In this document: positions 8,310 to 56,021 of the stretch, one piece after another | Position numbering within the stretch: the stretch's first letter is position 1 | Layout of the letters: each line of letters starts with the position of its first letter | Assembly (NCBI GenBank): GCA_019637095.1 | Contig: JAHBWG010000007.1 | Span: 62,001 to 126,000 of the forward strand | Length of the DNA stretch: 64,000 nucleotides | Reading direction: 5' to 3' | From: Sandaracinaceae bacterium | GTDB lineage: Bacteria; Myxococcota_A; Polyangia; Polyangiales; Sandaracinaceae | The notes under the pieces: model-generated | What the model saw: the letters and a program-made list of their open reading frames with translations, nothing else | What the model was told of the DNA's origin: nothing | Database searches by the model: none | Translations under genes and position numbers: made by a program

Positions 8310-8905
8310 GGCGTGGCCGGGTCCGTGTCGTCGGGGTCCGAGGGCGCGGTGAAGCAGGCGAGCAGCACCGCCGTGTCGCCGTAGCGATAGCGCGAAACCT
8401 CGTCGAAGCCGAGCGGCAAGTCGGGGGGGTGGCGCCGCGCGTGCTCGATCACGACGATCGCGTCCGGCGCGAGCGCGCCGGCGGCCGCGAGCGCGGCGAG
8501 GAGCGGCGCGACGCGGGCGACCTTCGCGTACGGCGGGTCGACGAACACGAGGCTCGCGCGCGCCTCGAGGCGGGCCGCCCACGGGGCCGGCGGCGCGTCG
8601 AGGTCCGCGACGACCACGCGGGCGCGCGCGGCGAGCCCGAGCTCCACGGCGCTCTCCTCGATCGCGCGCGCGACGCGGCGCGCCGACTCGACGAGCACCG
8701 CGTCGAGCGCGCCCCGGGAGAGCGCCTCGAACGCCATCGCGCCGGTGCCCGCGTAGAGGTCGAGCACCCGCGCGCCGGCGATCCAGCCGCGCGCGTCGAG
8801 CGCCGAGCCGATCGCCTCGCGCACCCGCTCGCTCGTCGGCCGCGTCGCGTCGGACGCAGGCCCGCCGAAGCGCCGCCCGGAGAGCGCCCCGCCGACGATC
8901 CGCAC
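8306..8905 (-). CDS. rsmD: 16S rRNA (guanine(966)-N(2))-methyltransferase
   Basis: A 199-residue SAM-dependent methyltransferase that modifies G966 of 16S rRNA. It starts with the family N-terminus RIVGGALSGRRF and RPTSERVREA, has the SAM-binding motif LDLYAGTGAMAFEALSRGA (about 48-66) and the catalytic VDPPY motif near residue 124. The start is GTG, 4 bases after the PEGA-domain gene stop. The gene overlaps coaD by four bases, so the three genes probably form one transcript. Confidence 0.92.
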   Translation of the reverse strand: MRIVGGALSGRRFGGPASDATRPTSERVREAIGSALDARGWIAGARVLDLYAGTGAMAFEALSRGALDAVLVESARRVARAIEESAVELGLAARARVVVADLDAPPAPWAARLEARASLVFVDPPYAKVARVAPLLAALAAAGALAPDAIVVIEHARRHPPDLPLGFDEVSRYRYGDTAVLLACFTAPSDPDDTDPATP

Positions 8906-8909
8906 CCGC

Positions 8910-10037
8910 TCAGAACCGGAGGCGGCCGCCGACGTACGCGTGGTCGAGGCCGACCGACGGCACGAGCTCGAAGGTCACCGCGTCGGCGGAGGCCCGCTCC
9001 TCGCCGTCGTCCGAGGCGGTCGCGCCCGCGACCACGAAGTAGAGGCCGAGGCCGCCCGCGAGCACCGTCAGGCCCATGAACACGAACTGCATCACCTCGA
9101 GCGTCGCCGCCTCGCTGCAGATCTCCGCCGCGCGGTTCGTCACGCCGGTCGAGCACAGGTTCTGCGTGCTCTCCATGTACTCGGCCCGGATCGCCGCCCA
9201 CTCGGTGCTGTTCGTGTGGCCCAGGACGGTCACGCCCGAGTACGCCCACACCACCGCGAAGCCCGCCGCCGCGACGAGCAGCGCCGAGCCGGCGACGAGC
9301 TCGGGAGACACGCCGCCGCCGCCGCCGCCGTCCGAGCCGAGCTGGAGCTCGCCCTCGAGGGTCGCCTCGCCGTACGCGGGGACGGACACCGAGCTCGCGA
9401 ACGCCGCGTGGTCCGTCGCGGTCACGCGCACCTGGCGGTGTCCCGCCTCGACGTCGTCGATGCGCAGGGCCCCGTTCGCGTCGACGACGCCGACCTGGCG
9501 GCCGTCGATCGAGACCTCCGCGCCGGGCACGTTCACGCGGACGATCAGGGTGCCGGCGCGCGGCGCCCCCTGGAGCGAGCGGATCCACCGGCGCGCGGGG
9601 ACGCGCAGATCGTCGATGTCCTGATGAACGCTGGGGATGGTGTCGGAAACGGAGTGTTCGATGCCACCCTGCGCGGCGTTGAACAGGTGAAGGTTGATCG
9701 AGAAGTCGAAGTCGCTCCGGGCGCTCGTCCGGCGCACTTCGCCGTAGATCACCCGCTCCGCGCCGAGCGACTCCGCGATCGAGCCCAGGCACGTGGGGTT
9801 CGGGTTGTCGCAGTCGTGGACGAGCGCCATCTGGACGAACGTCACCTCGCGGTCCGACACCTGCCAGCCCTCGACCTGCGAGGCGGCGTTGCGGATCGCG
9901 CCAGTCAAGTTGCGCGTGAAGTCGTCGTCGCCTTCGACCGACCGGATGCCGAGGACCATCACGCTCTGGGCGCCCGCGACGCTCGGGGCGAGCGAGGCCA
10001 GGGCGACGAGCAGGGGCAAGAGGGCTCGCTTGATCAT
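8910..10037 (-). CDS. PEGA-domain membrane protein
   Basis: A 375-residue envelope protein. The signal peptide (about 1-23) ends near SVAGAQ. Residues about 25-165 form a domain typical of myxobacterial proteins that predict periplasmic enzyme-like folds without known function. A PEGA domain follows (about 175-240: GTLIVRVNVPGAEVSIDGRQ), then a Gly-rich linker and two transmembrane segments (about 255-275 and 320-345). ATG at 10037 is preferred for the signal peptide. Probably first gene of the operon with rsmD and coaD. Specific function unknown. Confidence 0.75.
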   Translation of the reverse strand: MIKRALLPLLVALASLAPSVAGAQSVMVLGIRSVEGDDDFTRNLTGAIRNAASQVEGWQVSDREVTFVQMALVHDCDNPNPTCLGSIAESLGAERVIYGEVRRTSARSDFDFSINLHLFNAAQGGIEHSVSDTIPSVHQDIDDLRVPARRWIRSLQGAPRAGTLIVRVNVPGAEVSIDGRQVGVVDANGALRIDDVEAGHRQVRVTATDHAAFASSVSVPAYGEATLEGELQLGSDGGGGGGVSPELVAGSALLVAAAGFAVVWAYSGVTVLGHTNSTEWAAIRAEYMESTQNLCSTGVTNRAAEICSEAATLEVMQFVFMGLTVLAGGLGLYFVVAGATASDDGEERASADAVTFELVPSVGLDHAYVGGRLRF

Positions 10038-10136
10038 GGGGTGGATCGCTCCCAGGGGGGGACGATAGCATTCCAAGGTCGCGACAACCCACCTCTTTTG
10101 CCGGGCTCGCGCGTCGGAGCTACATCAGTGGAAGCG

Positions 10137-12242
10137 ATGGACGCGCTCGCGAAGGTCTGCCCCAAGTGCGGGCGCCACTACGATGGCGCGGCGGCCTTCT
10201 GTCAGAAGGACGGCGTCCGGCTGACCGCGACCACACAGAACAACGACCCATACATCGGCCAGACCCTGCTCGATCAGTTCAAGATCGAGGAGAAGATCGG
10301 CGCGGGCGGGATGGGCGCGGTCTACCGCGCGCGGCAGACGACGCTGCACCGCGACGTCGCGATCAAGATCCTGCACGCCGAGCTCGCGGACAACGCCGAC
10401 GCGGTGCGCCGCTTCAAGCGCGAGGCGCGCGTGTGCACGGCGCTCGATCACCCGAACGTCGTGCGCGTGTTCCTGTTCGGCCAGCTCGAGGACGGCTCGC
10501 TCTACATCGTGATGGAGCACCTCGACGGGCGGCCGCTGCTCGACGTGATCCGGCGCGAGGGCGCGTTGCCGGTCCACCGCGCGCTCCACATCGCGACGCA
10601 GATCTGCGACGGCGTCGGCGAGGCGCACCAGCAAGGCGTCGTGCACCGCGACATCAAGCCGGAGAACGTCGTGCTCGTCACGCGGCGGCGCGATCCGGAC
10701 TTCGTGAAGGTGCTCGACTTCGGGATCGCGCGCGTCCTCTGGGGCGACGACGTGACGCAGGCCACGCAGTCGGGGCTGGTGTTCGGGACCGCCCGCTACA
10801 TCTCGCCGGAGGGCGCCGCGGGCGAGGCGACCGACGCGCGCAGCGACGTGTACTCGCTCGGCATCCTCACCTACCAGCTCTGCTGCGGCGAGACGCCGTT
10901 CGACGCGCCCTCGCCGGTGCAGATGCTGATGAAGCACATCCACGCGGACCCGCCGCACCTGCGCGGCAAGCCGCGCGGCGCGCACGTCCCGGAGCCGATC
11001 GCGGACGTCATCATGCGCGCGCTCTCGAAGAACCCGGACGGGCGCTACGACGACGCGCACGCGTACGCCGACGCGCTGAGGACCGCGGCGGAGCGCGCGG
11101 GCTTCGAGGTGCACCGCCGCCGCACCGCGCGCTCCTCGATCGGGCCGCCGTCGGACCCGGCGTACCGCCTGCCCGCCGGCGCCATCGAGCCGCCCACCGT
11201 GAGCAAGACGCCGCCGATGTCGGAGCTGCCGCCGACCGCGGAGGCGCCCGCGTCGCACTCGACGACGCTCGAGGGCGCGCCGAGCCCGTTCGGCGACGAC
11301 GTCGACGTGTCGATCCCCGGGCTCGCGAGGGCGCCGCGCACGCTGCCCAAGGGCGCGCGCACGATCGCGCTCGCGTTCCTCGTCGGCGCGCTGCTCGTCG
11401 CGGCCGGCTACGGCGTCAAGCGCTACCTCGACCGGCCGCCCGCGGTCGATCCCGTCGCCGACGCCGACGCGCTGCTCGAGGAGGCGCGCGGCGCGCTGCG
11501 CGCCGATCGGCTCGACGCGCCGCTCGAGGCGAGCGTGCTCGGCCTCACCGACCGCGTGCTCGCGGCGCACCCCGGCGATCCGGAGGCGGGGCGGATCCGC
11601 CGGCTCGCGCGCGATCGGCTCGTCGAGCGCGCGCGCGAGCGCGCCGACGCGGGCGCGCGCGACGAGGCGCTCGCGCTCTACGCGCGCGCGCGCGCCTTCG
11701 TCGAGGAGGACTCGGTGATCGATCGCGCGGTCGACGCGCTCGAGCGCCCGCCGACGCCGCGCGCGGCGCCGGGGGTGCGCACGCGCCCGCAGCTCGTGAC
11801 CGCCGGCCAGGAGGTCACCGTCGTCGCGGTGCTCGAGCCGGACGTCGAGCTCGGCGCCCGCTCCGCGCCGCGCTTCGTGTTGCAGCGCGCCGGCCGGCAG
11901 GTCGGCGCCGCGATCGACGCGACCGCGGTCGAGGGCGAAGAGGGCGTGTACGAGGCCACCACCACCGTCGCGCGCGCGGGCACGTACCGCCTGCTCTTCC
12001 GCGTCGGCAGCGGGAGCGACCTGATCGAGCGCGCCGCGGACCTCGAGGTGCGCGCCGACCCGAGCGCGCCGGCGCGCCCCGCGACGCCGCGCGACCCGCC
12101 GCCCGTGACGACGCAGGGCAGCGCGTGGACGCCGAGCGTCGCGCCCGCGTGGACGAGCGCGACCGAGCCGCCGCAGATCGTCGACGTCGCGCCGACGCCG
12201 ACCCCGGCGCCGCCGCCCCCGTGGACCGGCAGCGTGCTGTGA
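10137..12242 (+). CDS. Hanks-type Ser/Thr protein kinase with N-terminal zinc ribbon
   Basis: A 701-residue signalling kinase. A short zinc ribbon (CPKCGRHY...FCQKDG) at residues about 9-27 precedes the kinase domain (about 45-310) with Gly-loop GAGGMGAVY, VAIKIL, catalytic HRDIKPEN and DFGIA, and SPE in place of APE. A Pro-rich segment leads to one transmembrane helix (about 410-430) and an extracytoplasmic region of about 270 residues. All catalytic residues are present, so it is likely active. GTG at 10128 is an alternative start. Divergent from the PEGA/rsmD/coaD group. The 155 bases after the stop hold nothing recognisable. Confidence 0.92.
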   Translation: MDALAKVCPKCGRHYDGAAAFCQKDGVRLTATTQNNDPYIGQTLLDQFKIEEKIGAGGMGAVYRARQTTLHRDVAIKILHAELADNADAVRRFKREARVCTALDHPNVVRVFLFGQLEDGSLYIVMEHLDGRPLLDVIRREGALPVHRALHIATQICDGVGEAHQQGVVHRDIKPENVVLVTRRRDPDFVKVLDFGIARVLWGDDVTQATQSGLVFGTARYISPEGAAGEATDARSDVYSLGILTYQLCCGETPFDAPSPVQMLMKHIHADPPHLRGKPRGAHVPEPIADVIMRALSKNPDGRYDDAHAYADALRTAAERAGFEVHRRRTARSSIGPPSDPAYRLPAGAIEPPTVSKTPPMSELPPTAEAPASHSTTLEGAPSPFGDDVDVSIPGLARAPRTLPKGARTIALAFLVGALLVAAGYGVKRYLDRPPAVDPVADADALLEEARGALRADRLDAPLEASVLGLTDRVLAAHPGDPEAGRIRRLARDRLVERARERADAGARDEALALYARARAFVEEDSVIDRAVDALERPPTPRAAPGVRTRPQLVTAGQEVTVVAVLEPDVELGARSAPRFVLQRAGRQVGAAIDATAVEGEEGVYEATTTVARAGTYRLLFRVGSGSDLIERAADLEVRADPSAPARPATPRDPPPVTTQGSAWTPSVAPAWTSATEPPQIVDVAPTPTPAPPPPWTGSVL

Positions 12243-12397
12243 AGGTCTGTCGGTAGATCGGACCGAGCACGGGGTCGAGGTGGGTCCAGCCGCGAGGTGA
12301 CGCGAGGGCTCGTGCGAGAGCACGGCGAGCCGCGGCAACGCCGCGGATGGGCCGCATCGACCGCGGGGCGACGGGAGATTCATCGACGGACCGTGAG

Positions 12398-12847
12398 TCA
12401 CGCGGCGAGGCGCGGCACCCGCAGCGCCTGCGCGACGACGCCGACGCTGGTGAGCGCGATCGCGGCGAGCACCGGCACGAGCGAGGCGCCGAAGGTGAAG
12501 CAGAACGTCGCGAAGATCGACGGGATCTGCGGCACCGCCGTCGTCAGCAGGAACACGCTGAACGCGATCTGGAAGCGGCGCGCCTGCGTGCTCTCCTCTT
12601 CGGAGAGGCGCGCGATGCGGCGCTCGACCACGCGGCGCTGGATCGCGATGCCGAGCGCGGCGCCGGCGCCCGCGAGCAGCGCGACGCCCCACGCGACGGG
12701 GGTGAGGGTCGGCTCGAAGAGCTCGCGGATGAGCTCGAAGTCGGCGGGGAAGAACAGCAGACGGATCGCCGTCTCGAGCGCGAGCGCGCCGGGCGCCGCG
12801 ACGATGGTCAGCCACAGGAGCGAGGTCGAGGGCGCCTTCTCGGCCAT
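12398..12847 (-). CDS. small integral membrane protein of unknown function
   Basis: A 149-residue protein with four predicted hydrophobic segments (about residues 9-30, 47-68, 93-108 and 118-140) and a short charged loop RRVVERRIARLSEEEST between helices 2 and 3. No motif or family is recognisable. The gene stands alone between the kinase and the outer-membrane gene pair. Confidence 0.65.
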   Translation of the reverse strand: MAEKAPSTSLLWLTIVAAPGALALETAIRLLFFPADFELIRELFEPTLTPVAWGVALLAGAGAALGIAIQRRVVERRIARLSEEESTQARRFQIAFSVFLLTTAVPQIPSIFATFCFTFGASLVPVLAAIALTSVGVVAQALRVPRLAA

Positions 12848-12884
12848 GGTGGCGCGAGGATAGCAACGTCGGCGGCGCGCGGGC

Positions 12885-14132
12885 TCAATGCCGCGGGAGC
12901 GTCGTGTCGTACGCGTAGCCCAAGCCCAGGAGCACCCGGTAGGGCTCCTGCGCGGCGAGCTCGCGCGCGTGGGCGTGCACGCCGGTCAGCCCGACGTCGA
13001 GCGTGAGCGTGATCGCGAGCCCGCGCACCGGGGGCATCACGCGCACGCCCAGGGTGAGCCGCGAGCGCAGCGCGTCGGGACCGAGCTCGCTCAGGCACGG
13101 ATCGACCTCGGGGCGCGCGCTCGGCACGCACACGAAGCCCTGCCGGTTCACGGGAACGTCCATGGTCCACTCGAGGAGCGGGCTCAACGTCGTCTGCTCG
13201 GCCGCGAGCTCGATCGGCAGCTCGAGGCCGACCCCGAAGCGCAGCCGGTCGACGCGGTCGACGCCGAGCGCGAAGCGCTCGAGCCGGCCGATGCGGTGGC
13301 GCGCCTCCTCCTCGAAGGGCCGCCGCGCGTCGGGCCCCTCCGCCGGCAGCGCGTCGTAGCGGGTCTGCTCGCGCGCGCGCACGATCGCGTCCGAGTGATC
13401 GAAGCGATAGCCGCCGTTGAGCCGCACGATCAGCGGGATCCGGCCCTCGACGCCGTCGAGCTCGCGCAGGTCGAGGGTGGCGTTGGCGCGCAGGCTCACG
13501 CTCGTCGTGTCGAGGGTGAGGGCCGCGTCACCGAAGAGGCTGCGGAAATCGATCGCGGCGTCGGCGCCGAGCCGCAGCCACGCGAGCGGCGTCGCCCACG
13601 CCTTGAGGCCGAAGCGCGCGTCGCCGTTGAGGCGCGTCCGCCCCGGCGCCTCCGTCTCGAGCCAGAGGCTCGCCGCCGACCCGTAGATCTCGAGCGCGTC
13701 GAACGGGGTCCAGCCCACCGACAAGGCGCCGCCGAAGTGGAGCTCGCGGCCCGGCGGATCGAGCCATCCGTCGAGCGCGAAGGAGCTCCCCGCGAGCTGC
13801 ACCCGGAACGAGCCCGGCGCCCCGGAGCCGGCGTCGACGACGCGCAGGCCGCCGACGGATCCCTCCCATGTGTTCTGCAAGACGTATTGCCGCTCGCGGC
13901 GCGCCTGCGACGCCGGCGGGGGCGCGTCGTCGGCGTGGTCGTCCGTAGGGTCCTCGCCCGGCTCCAGCGGGGACGCGCCGAGGGGCGCGAGCGGCGGCGC
14001 CCCGTGCTCGAAGGGCTCGAGCGAGGCGTCGTCGGACGGCTGCGCGGCCGCGAGCGCGGGACCCGCGAGCAGCCACGCGATCGCGAGCCGGGCCGCGAGC
14101 CTCGGGGCCGCGCGCGAGGGTCGAGCGCGCAT
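12885..14132 (-). CDS. predicted outer-membrane beta-barrel protein
   Basis: A 415-residue exported protein. It has an N-terminal signal peptide (cleavage near LAAAQ), an acidic and Pro-rich linker to about residue 75, then alternating amphipathic strands with aromatic girdles and no long hydrophobic helix, as in outer-membrane barrels. It ends in GLGYAYDTTLPRH. The ATG at 14132 shares one base with the stop of the porin-like gene upstream (TGATG), so both are likely co-translated. No specific family recognised. Confidence 0.65.
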   Translation of the reverse strand: MRARPSRAAPRLAARLAIAWLLAGPALAAAQPSDDASLEPFEHGAPPLAPLGASPLEPGEDPTDDHADDAPPPASQARRERQYVLQNTWEGSVGGLRVVDAGSGAPGSFRVQLAGSSFALDGWLDPPGRELHFGGALSVGWTPFDALEIYGSAASLWLETEAPGRTRLNGDARFGLKAWATPLAWLRLGADAAIDFRSLFGDAALTLDTTSVSLRANATLDLRELDGVEGRIPLIVRLNGGYRFDHSDAIVRAREQTRYDALPAEGPDARRPFEEEARHRIGRLERFALGVDRVDRLRFGVGLELPIELAAEQTTLSPLLEWTMDVPVNRQGFVCVPSARPEVDPCLSELGPDALRSRLTLGVRVMPPVRGLAITLTLDVGLTGVHAHARELAAQEPYRVLLGLGYAYDTTLPRH

Positions 14133-52957: not shown

Positions 52958-53105
52958 GGCTCGATCGGGGGCGCGGCGGGGGTCGCGCCACGACCGCGCT
53001 CATCATCGTGCGATCGCTCGCGGAACGCCAGCGCCGAGGGGCGCCGGCGACGCGGGGCTTTACGCGGGGCCGGCGGATCCCGAGACTCTCGCGCGGAGGC
53101 GAGCG

Positions 53106-56021
53106 ATGAGCGAGCACGAGGTGAAGATCGCGCGCGGGCTCGACGCGCTGCCCGAGGCGCTCGGGAGCGCGCGCCGGGTGCTGGTGATCACGGGCCCGTC
53201 GCGGCGGTTCGTGGAGCGGCTGCCGCTCGAAGACCGCGAGGTCGAGGTGTTCGACGCCGCGCGCGTGCACGTCCCGCGCGAGGTGCTCGACGCGGCGAGC
53301 GCGGCGCTGGCGCGGTTCGGGGCCGACGCGATCGTGGCCCTCGGAGGCGGCGCGGCGATCGGGCTCGGCAAGGCGCTCTGCTTGGTCCACGCGGGGCTCC
53401 GCTTCGTCGCGATCCCGACGACCTACTCCGGCTCGGAGATGACGAGCATCCACGGCGTCACCGACGGCGGCGACAAGCGCACGGGCCGCGACCCGCGCGC
53501 GCGGCCTCACGCGGTGATCCACGAGCCGGCGCTCTTCACCGAGATGCCGCGGGCGCTCACGGTGACGAGCCTGCTCAACGCGCTCGCGCACCCGATCGGC
53601 GCGCTCGAGGGCGGGCTCGACGAGGGCGCGGAGCGCGCGGCGCTCGGCGCGATCCGCGATCTGTCGTGGGCGCTCGACCAGCTCCTCGAGTCGGCCTCGT
53701 CGGCCGACGGGCTCGAGAGCGCCCTGCGCGGCGCGGCGCGCGCGGGCGAGATCATCGAGCGCGGCGGGCTCGGCGTGCACCACGCGGTCGCGCACCTGCT
53801 CGGCGGGCGCTTCGATCTCGACCACGCGGGGGTGCACGCCGTCTTGCTCCCCCACACCGCGCGGCGCCTCGCGGACGAAGAGCCCGCGCTCTACGCGCGG
53901 ATCGCCGACGCGGCCGGGGCGAGCGACCTGCCGGCCAGGCTCTACGACGCGCTGACGCGCGCGGGCACCGCCCGATCGCTCGTGGAGCTCGGCGTCGCGC
54001 ACGAGGCGTTCGAGGCGCTCGCCGCGGAGGACCCGCGCGCGGCGCTCGGCTGGGTCGACGACGCGCGGCTCGGCCGGCGCCCGACCGTGCGCTCGCGCGC
54101 GCTGGACGCCGGCGCCCGGCCGTGGACGCTCGCGCTCGGCCCGCCGCCGCGCGAAGCCTCGCGCGTGATCGTCGCGTTGCACGGCCGCGGCGCGAACGCG
54201 GGCCGCTTCGCGAAGGACGTGCTCGATCTGAGCGGGCGCGATCCGTCGATCGCCATCGTCGCGCCGCAGGCGCCGCGCTGCGCGTGGTTCGAGGGGAGCT
54301 TCCGCGCGCCCGAGTCGGGGCTCGAGGCCTCGCTCGACGCGGTGCGCGCGACGCTCGACGCCCTCCTCGCCGAGGGCGTCGCGCCCGAGCGCACGTCCCT
54401 CGTCGGCTTCTCGCAGGGCGCGTGCCTCGCGATCGAGTGCGTCGCGCGCGCGGAGCGGCGCCTCGGCGGGCTCGTCGCGATCGCGGGCGGCCGGATCGGC
54501 GCGACGCCCGCGCCGATCGCGCGCGAGCTCGCCGGCCTGCCCGTCGTGCTCGGCGCGGCCGAGGGCGACTCCTGGGTGCGCCCGGACGAGGTCGAGGCGG
54601 CCGCGAGCGCGCTGCGCGCCGCGGGCGCGCGCGTCACGGTGATCGCCGAGCCTGGCGACGCGCACGTGATCACGCTGCGCCAGCGCGTGGCGGCGCACGC
54701 GCTGATCACGGGGCGCGACCCGCGCGAGGGCCTGTTCGGCCTCCACGCGCCCCACCAGAGCGAGGCGCTCGAGGGCGCGCTCCCGCGCCACCAGAACACC
54801 CCCCGCAAGACGACGTACGGGCTCTACCCAGAGCTCGTCAGCGGCACCGGCTTCATGGCCGACCGGCACCACAACCGCCGCGTCTGGCTCTACCGGATCC
54901 GGCCCTCCGCCTCGCACACCCCCTTCGAGCCGCTCGCGCACGCCACGTTCCGCGCGGACTGGACGCCCGGCGAGGTCGACCCGAACCTCGCGGGCTGGGC
55001 CGCGCTCCCCGCGCCCGAGGCGCCCACCGACTTCGTCGACGGCGTCGCGACGCTCGGCGGCCAGGGCAGCCCTGCGCTGCGCCGCGGCTTCGCGATCCAT
55101 CTCTACGCGGCCAACCGCAGCATGGAGCGGCGCGCGTTCTACGACGCCGACGGCGACCTCCTGATCATCCCGCAAGAAGGCTCGCTGACTCTCCAGACGG
55201 AGCTCGGCGTCCTCGACGTCGGCCCGGGCCAGATCGCGCTCGTGCCGCGCGGGCTGAAGCTCGCCGTCCACCTCGCGGGCGGCTTCGCGCGCGGCTGGAT
55301 CGGCGAGGCGTACGGCCGCAGCTTCGAGCTCCCCGCGCGCGGCGTCGTCGGCAGCAACGGCACGAGCGACCCGCGACACTTCCGCGCGCCGCGCGCGTGG
55401 TTCGAGGACCGCGTCGTCCCCGGCTACCGGCTGACCGCCAAGCTCGGCAACGCGCTCCACGACGCGCGCCTCGACCACTCGCCGTTCGACGTGGTCGCCT
55501 GGCACGGCGAGCACGCGCCGTACGTCTACGAGCTCGCCGACTTCTCGCCGGTCGGCAACACGCGCTTCGATCACCCCGACCCGTCCGTCCACGTCGTGAT
55601 CGGCGCGCCGATGGACGAGGCCGGCGCCGACACGCTCGACTTCGTGTTCTTCCCGCCGCGCTGGGATCCGACCGAGCACACCTTCCGCCCGCCGTTCTTC
55701 CACCGCAACGCGGTCACCGAGCTGAACGGGATCATCGCCGACCCGAGCCTGCGCGCCGGCGGCCCGTTCGCGCCCGGGGTCACGTTCCTGACGCCGTCGA
55801 TGACCGCGCACGGCGTCCTCGCGCGGGCGGTCGAGAGCCAGCTGCGCAAGCCCGACGCGGTGGCGGATCGACCGGCGCGCATCCCGGACGCGTCCGCCTG
55901 GTTCCAGCTCGAGACGATGCTCCCGCTCTCGCTCACGCCGTGGGCGCGCGCCGCCGCGCACCGGATCGGCGAGTGGCCGCACGTCTGGGGCGCGTACCGC
56001 GAGCGGTTCGAGGCGCCCTGA
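53106..56021 (+). CDS. fusion: maleylacetate-reductase-like + carboxylesterase + homogentisate-1,2-dioxygenase-like
   Basis: One uninterrupted 971-codon frame. Residues about 1-335 match maleylacetate reductase, a metal-poor branch of iron alcohol dehydrogenases: GGGAAIGLGK, PTTYSGSEMT, LNALAH and HHAVAHLLGG, with HAGVHAVLLPH. Residues about 336-545 form an alpha/beta-hydrolase of the phospholipase/carboxylesterase type with Ser436 in GFSQGA and a His in GDAHVI. Residues about 552-971 are a full homogentisate dioxygenase domain: GLYPELVSGTGF, FYDADGDLLIIPQ, DHSPFDVVAWHG and the iron ligands His866, Glu872 and His902, whose spacing equals that of human His335/Glu341/His371. ATG 53106 follows a short leader after pssA. 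The three activities would suit ring cleavage and reduction of a hydroquinone-type compound (inference). Confidence 0.85.
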   Translation: MSEHEVKIARGLDALPEALGSARRVLVITGPSRRFVERLPLEDREVEVFDAARVHVPREVLDAASAALARFGADAIVALGGGAAIGLGKALCLVHAGLRFVAIPTTYSGSEMTSIHGVTDGGDKRTGRDPRARPHAVIHEPALFTEMPRALTVTSLLNALAHPIGALEGGLDEGAERAALGAIRDLSWALDQLLESASSADGLESALRGAARAGEIIERGGLGVHHAVAHLLGGRFDLDHAGVHAVLLPHTARRLADEEPALYARIADAAGASDLPARLYDALTRAGTARSLVELGVAHEAFEALAAEDPRAALGWVDDARLGRRPTVRSRALDAGARPWTLALGPPPREASRVIVALHGRGANAGRFAKDVLDLSGRDPSIAIVAPQAPRCAWFEGSFRAPESGLEASLDAVRATLDALLAEGVAPERTSLVGFSQGACLAIECVARAERRLGGLVAIAGGRIGATPAPIARELAGLPVVLGAAEGDSWVRPDEVEAAASALRAAGARVTVIAEPGDAHVITLRQRVAAHALITGRDPREGLFGLHAPHQSEALEGALPRHQNTPRKTTYGLYPELVSGTGFMADRHHNRRVWLYRIRPSASHTPFEPLAHATFRADWTPGEVDPNLAGWAALPAPEAPTDFVDGVATLGGQGSPALRRGFAIHLYAANRSMERRAFYDADGDLLIIPQEGSLTLQTELGVLDVGPGQIALVPRGLKLAVHLAGGFARGWIGEAYGRSFELPARGVVGSNGTSDPRHFRAPRAWFEDRVVPGYRLTAKLGNALHDARLDHSPFDVVAWHGEHAPYVYELADFSPVGNTRFDHPDPSVHVVIGAPMDEAGADTLDFVFFPPRWDPTEHTFRPPFFHRNAVTELNGIIADPSLRAGGPFAPGVTFLTPSMTAHGVLARAVESQLRKPDAVADRPARIPDASAWFQLETMLPLSLTPWARAAAHRIGEWPHVWGAYRERFEAP

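Follow-up and report, generated by a model that had tools for sequence, protein, structure and literature searches.

A single-chain fusion of maleylacetate reductase-, carboxylesterase- and homogentisate dioxygenase-type domains with a possible role in hydroquinone degradation

Introduction

A gene in a 64,000-nt stretch of Sandaracinaceae DNA (the whole stretch is called the window here) raises the question of what one polypeptide would do with a maleylacetate reductase (MAR)-type domain, a hydrolase domain and a homogentisate dioxygenase (HGD)-type domain in a row, and whether homogentisate is its substrate. The original prediction read the fusion as a one-polypeptide route for para-diol aromatic compounds. 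We examined this reading by domain searches, residue comparisons, structure prediction and a survey of relatives in the same phylum.

Results

The frame at 53106..56021 (+) has no internal stop and encodes 971 residues, and a ribosome-binding-like GGAGG sequence, read directly at 53095..53099 (+), lies 6 nt 5' of the ATG at 53106. The length of the open frame alone is weak proof of a gene, because the DNA is GC-rich and its opposite strand carries an open frame of 1387 codons; the gene is proven by homology and by independent relatives with single-frame homologues. All five Pfam matches in the 971-residue protein exceed their gathering scores, and their order is Fe-ADH (residues 14-141), ADH_Fe_C (153-307), Abhydrolase_2 (348-523), HgmA_N (545-810) and HgmA_C (812-967), in agreement with the predicted single frame of three domains. 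The MAR-type domain, of the iron-ADH family, spans residues 14-310 (53145..54035, +) and is assigned by its two Pfam matches, PDB matches and a structural match. It is followed by a low-confidence linker (residues 317-346; 54054..54143, +; pLDDT below 50), an Abhydrolase_2 (phospholipase/carboxylesterase) domain at about residues 340-530 (54123..54695, +) and an HGD-type domain at residues 545-967 (54738..56006, +; HgmA_N 3e-94, HgmA_C 3e-30). The full chain was modelled with AlphaFold2 (mean pLDDT 76.7, pTM 0.51). The folds of the MAR and HGD domains are confident; the hydrolase is poorly modelled and the relative placement of the domains is unreliable.

A search for other proteins with the same domain order returned triple fusions in a single frame, about 970-1020 residues long, in at least 12 other genomes of the phylum (G016, G053, G043, G280, G244, G117, G235, G641, G633, G609, G632 and G596) and in a named MAG (L072, Co_bin.297). 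Three of these proteins match that of the window at 59% (G016), 56% (G053) and 43% (G043), and parts of the fusion lie at contig ends in G002 and G060. Other arrangements of the same pieces also occur. Five MAR-HGD proteins have no hydrolase domain (G015, G022, G243, G284 and G153), G023 and G034 carry MAR-hydrolase proteins and no HGD gene anywhere in either genome, G253 has a MAR-hydrolase gene with a separate HGD gene 14 nt downstream, and in G181 a MAR gene overlaps a separate HGD gene. The MAR-plus-hydrolase region is matched at 1e-50 in 21 of 379 phylum genomes, several of these matches being MAR only. Genes in the relatives were called with a simple codon-usage script, and their start sites are approximate; the contig scan for HGD listed mostly canonical HGDs, and its counts are no census. 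A plasmid search returned no place matching most of the fusion protein. In Burkholderiaceae, where we searched for bacterial methoxyhydroquinone clusters, the HGD frames listed are of single-domain size besides two of 917 and 926 codons.

The original prediction would have fallen had relatives carried three separate genes. Some do carry split genes, and most near relatives are fused. The adjacent split genes of G253 and G181 are the one point in favour of an assembly or frameshift artefact that joined separate genes, a reading that we regard as practically excluded, since independent assemblies from many genera contain the triple fusion in a single frame. Judged from the sequences, the domain join is real and old, and its pieces have been exchanged in evolution. 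This swapping among arrangements points to one shared pathway.

We then considered the HGD-type domain. Its iron ligands, His866 (55701-55703), Glu872 (55719-55721) and His902 (55809-55811), all on the plus strand, were placed by alignment to 1ey2 and 3zds. Their spacing of 6 and 30 residues equals that of the human enzyme, as had been predicted, and also that of the Pseudomonas putida HGD, and all three are invariant across eight triple fusions whose identity to the window protein is 37-57%. The domain shares with HmgA (1ey2, 3zds) the fold (Z 47-49 to solved HGDs), both Pfam domains and about 40% identity, but its score to TIGR01015, the HmgA equivalog, is 431 bits and lies below the cut-off of 510.75. 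Canonical HGDs have an EFMGLxxGxYDAK loop, read here in 76 sequences, and then HGPD further on. The window protein has Ser881 (55746..55748, +) in place of P. putida Tyr346 and lacks both the YDAK loop and the HGPD motif. Tyr346 is the loop residue that we take, from structural work of 2013, to touch homogentisate. The same absence is seen in every MAR-linked HGD examined, where E[LFI]N and then a TPxxTxHG-type sequence are found instead. In a tree of 49 HGDs, built by a quick method without bootstrap, a branch with an SH-aLRT of 100 separates the 19 MAR-linked ones, as one clade, from the rest. The PDB chain 9pz4 also belongs to the HGD family and has no tyrosine loop; we considered it as a fungal methoxyhydroquinone enzyme and set this aside, as no organism was given for it. 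G005 carries two further genes of interest: a stand-alone HGD of the MAR-linked clade without a MAR domain, which overlaps a flavin-reductase-family gene (L036, 9121-11072), and a very divergent HGD-like protein of 384 residues (L041, 8177-9331; 55.6 bits to HmgA), whose gene sits in a tyrosine cluster with HPPD, maiA and an FAH-like gene.

The HGD family membership and the exact iron-ligand spacing would fit a glutathione-independent homogentisate pathway, in which the HGD domain would form maleylacetoacetate, the MAR domain would reduce it to succinylacetoacetate, the hydrolase would release succinate and acetoacetate, and a 3-oxoacid CoA-transferase would provide the activation. At 96% completeness, the window genome gives no match to HPPD, contains no second HGD and has no maleylacetoacetate isomerase that scores over the cut-off. 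The missing isomerase suits such a pathway, as does a CoA-transferase family that includes acetoacetate as well as 3-oxoadipate enzymes; in both G117 and G060 the fusion is immediately followed downstream by genes for the A and B subunits of this family (PcaIJ/ScoAB), and two A subunits of this kind are encoded in the window genome. The missing HPPD speaks against it, and HPPD was likewise not found in the fusion genomes G016 (86% complete), G244 and G117 or in G253 with its split genes. G053 and G002 have HPPD, and they retain a separate canonical HGD besides the fusion. In its host the fusion has no genomic link to tyrosine degradation through HPPD, the isomerase or the hydrolase. The window genome also has no match to TIGR01266, which says little because this model covers a single type of fumarylacetoacetase and is over the cut-off in only 1 of 57 relatives. 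Homogentisate is an unlikely substrate because the loop is missing in the whole MAR-linked clade and neither HPPD nor a maleylacetoacetate isomerase is detectable in the host, and we consider the homogentisate pathway improbable. We set homogentisate aside as the default substrate on account of the lost loop, the separate clade and the absence of HPPD, and the dioxygenase of the fusion probably does not function as a homogentisate dioxygenase.

The hydrolase domain scores 47.5 bits against the Abhydrolase_2 cut-off of 23, and its nearest solved relative is the phospholipase/carboxylesterase 4h0c (phmmer 6e-22). The presumed catalytic triad consists of the nucleophile Ser436 in GFSQG (54411..54413, +), Asp488 (54567-54569, +) and His520 (54663-54665, +); all three residues are invariant in the eight triple fusions. 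The original prediction had compared the domain with MhqD-type carboxylesterases. The family and the Ser-Asp-His triad are shared with both the 4h0c carboxylesterases and the MhqD-type hydrolases, but the likeness to MhqD is loose, being at the level of the family. The genes mhqO and mhqD form another dioxygenase-hydrolase pair, which serves as an analogy because MhqO is reported as an extradiol, LinA-like dioxygenase (PMC12673573). In G284, where the MAR-HGD gene has no hydrolase part, a neighbouring COesterase gene could supply the missing esterase; we give this little weight, because the gene is convergent and begins with an apparent signal peptide.

The best PDB matches of the MAR domain are the MAR-family chains 3jzd, 3hl0 and 3w5s, and the MAR part of the model aligns to 3jzd and 3w5s with Z of 37-39, so that both the family and the iron-ADH fold are those of the nearest solved MARs. 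His162 (53589..53591, +) corresponds to the essential His172 of PcpE and is invariant in the eight fusions, as are the other MAR active-site histidines. PcpE-type MARs (3w5s, 3hl0) are thus the nearest solved family, with His172 and the histidine cluster kept in the window protein, which differs from them by its fusion, a shorter C-terminal region and an Ala227 (53784..53786, +) at the position of Lys238. This lysine lies in the PcpE signature LHHKLCHTLGG, where the window has VHHAVAHLLGG, and it is essential in PcpE, whose K238A mutant has no detectable activity (PMC5741723). In the clade of the window the position is occupied by A, T, R, H, R, R, Q and once K, whereas the other clade of triple fusions retains K. 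The predicted "three complete catalytic cores" therefore hold for the iron ligands and the hydrolase triad and not fully for the MAR core.

The reductase in the window's clade may be altered or dead, as the lysine essential in PcpE is not kept there. If the domain had lost its reductase activity and now served as a scaffold or had taken on a different role, the fusion would carry out ring cleavage and hydrolysis only. The inactive K238A mutant of PcpE and the variable residue in this clade favour such a loss. However, His162 and the other active-site histidines are invariant across the fusions, unlike those of a decaying domain, and with a methyl-ester substrate one charged contact could be dispensable. 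We regard a MAR domain without activity as quite unlikely, and we speculate that a methyl-ester substrate of the reductase could be the reason why the charged lysine became dispensable.

In the window, the fusion is flanked by genes for a short-chain dehydrogenase, a DHDPS-family protein, an AAA protein, a CDP-alcohol phosphatidyltransferase and an ArsA-like protein, with no aromatic operon. In G053, G043, G117 and G633, genes for a LysR regulator, an AMP-binding acyl-CoA synthetase, a citryl-CoA-lyase-like protein, a VOC protein and a GST lie beside the fusion, and subsets of them occur elsewhere. In the window genome these partner genes cluster on a different contig (C184), where no fusion gene accompanies them, with matches of 63% for the acyl-CoA synthetase, 63% for the citryl-CoA-lyase-like protein, 72% for VOC, 84% for GST and 53% for LysR. 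This cluster, with its divergent LysR gene, runs from 8739 to 13267 (L207), and in it VOC and GST are unusually conserved. Sets of VOC, GST and/or MAR genes without an adjoining HGD gene are found in G607 (L201), G639 (L202), G023 (L038) and G034 (L039); because these sets have no neighbouring HGD, ring cleavage there might instead be the work of the VOC protein. G280, G243 and G002 have genes for XylR_N sigma-54 activators close to the fusion or MAR-HGD gene, which suggests an aromatic compound as inducer. XylR_N/V4R activators of this kind were located at L060 (9044-10375), L067 (12319-13929) and L033 (2238-3923). Pirin genes adjoin the MAR or fusion gene in G280, G235, G002, G243, G181 and L072 (loci L060, L063, L033, L066, L067 and L072).

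Discussion

Taken together, these results suggest that the fusion is likely to cleave, hydrolyse and reduce a para-diol other than homogentisate. The predicted one-polypeptide para-diol route finds support in the domain architecture, in the recurrence of the fusion, in the regulators responsive to aromatic compounds beside its relatives and in a fungal pathway of the same kind; homogentisate activity and an intact MAR core are not supported. In Aspergillus niger, the HGD-family enzyme MhdA was assayed to convert methoxyhydroquinone to 4-hydroxy-6-methoxy-6-oxohexa-2,4-dienoate, 4-oxo-monomethyl adipate accumulates when the adjacent carboxylesterase gene omeA is deleted, and a MAR-homologous reductase has been proposed between MhdA and OmeA in a route that ends in 3-oxoadipate (PMC8336404). 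We propose methoxyhydroquinone because this route uses the three enzyme types of the fusion. The likeness is one of enzyme type: the fungal proteins are separate and the bacterial domains form one chain, with the MAR lysine altered in the window. The fungal product, 3-oxoadipate, fits the CoA-transferase neighbours of the fusion's relatives.

By this analogy, the C-terminal HGD-type domain would open the ring of a 1,4-dihydroxybenzene other than homogentisate, most likely a methoxyhydroquinone-type compound from lignin or vanillate, by a cut between the hydroxyl-bearing and the methoxyl-bearing carbons that would give a maleylacetate methyl ester. Two steps, in either order, would follow: reduction of the double bond by the N-terminal MAR-type domain, with NADH as reductant, and release of methanol by the carboxylesterase domain in the middle. 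A CoA-transferase would carry the resulting 3-oxoadipate into central metabolism. We give methoxyhydroquinone or a close analogue as the substrate a probability of about 0.4. Somewhat more tentative is the full proposal that one chain converts methoxyhydroquinone, or a closely related substituted hydroquinone, to 3-oxoadipate and passes the intermediates between its domains, with a dioxygenase from an HGD-like clade that has no described function. The activity of all three domains, the substrate, the order of the steps and any channelling are what we infer here.

Several observations sit uneasily with methoxyhydroquinone. The five MAR-HGD proteins without a hydrolase indicate that hydrolysis does not always come from the same chain, the MAR-hydrolase proteins of G023 and G034 indicate that those two domains also work without HGD, the acyl-CoA synthetase, citryl-CoA-lyase-like, VOC and GST partners are unaccounted for by the A. 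niger route, the MAR lysine varies in the window's clade, and no gene for the formation of methoxyhydroquinone was identified in the host. The same three-step logic may apply to another hydroquinone, such as hydroxyquinol, methylhydroquinone, chlorohydroquinone or a larger substituted compound. The hydrolase would then work as a C-C hydrolase that splits a 1,3-diketone, and the route might serve detoxification. MAR normally acts after the cleavage of hydroquinone or hydroxyquinol, and this usual place favours such a substrate. Proteins without the hydrolase would be expected were ester hydrolysis unnecessary for some of the substrates, and the presence of VOC and GST partners may point to chemistry of quinones or glutathione. 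However, the Abhydrolase_2 family and the nearest solved relatives of the hydrolase are carboxylesterases or thioesterases, and unsubstituted hydroquinone would require an aldehyde dehydrogenase, of which none was seen in the clusters examined. We consider another hydroquinone rather unlikely, and methoxyhydroquinone or a close analogue is the reading that we prefer.

If this reading is correct, the fusion would be a natural three-step enzyme of aromatic degradation in a single chain, useful for studies of channelling and for the conversion of lignin-derived methoxylated aromatics to 3-oxoadipate. It would also define a separate bacterial clade of HGD-like enzymes that automatic annotation would call homogentisate dioxygenases despite the missing homogentisate loop.
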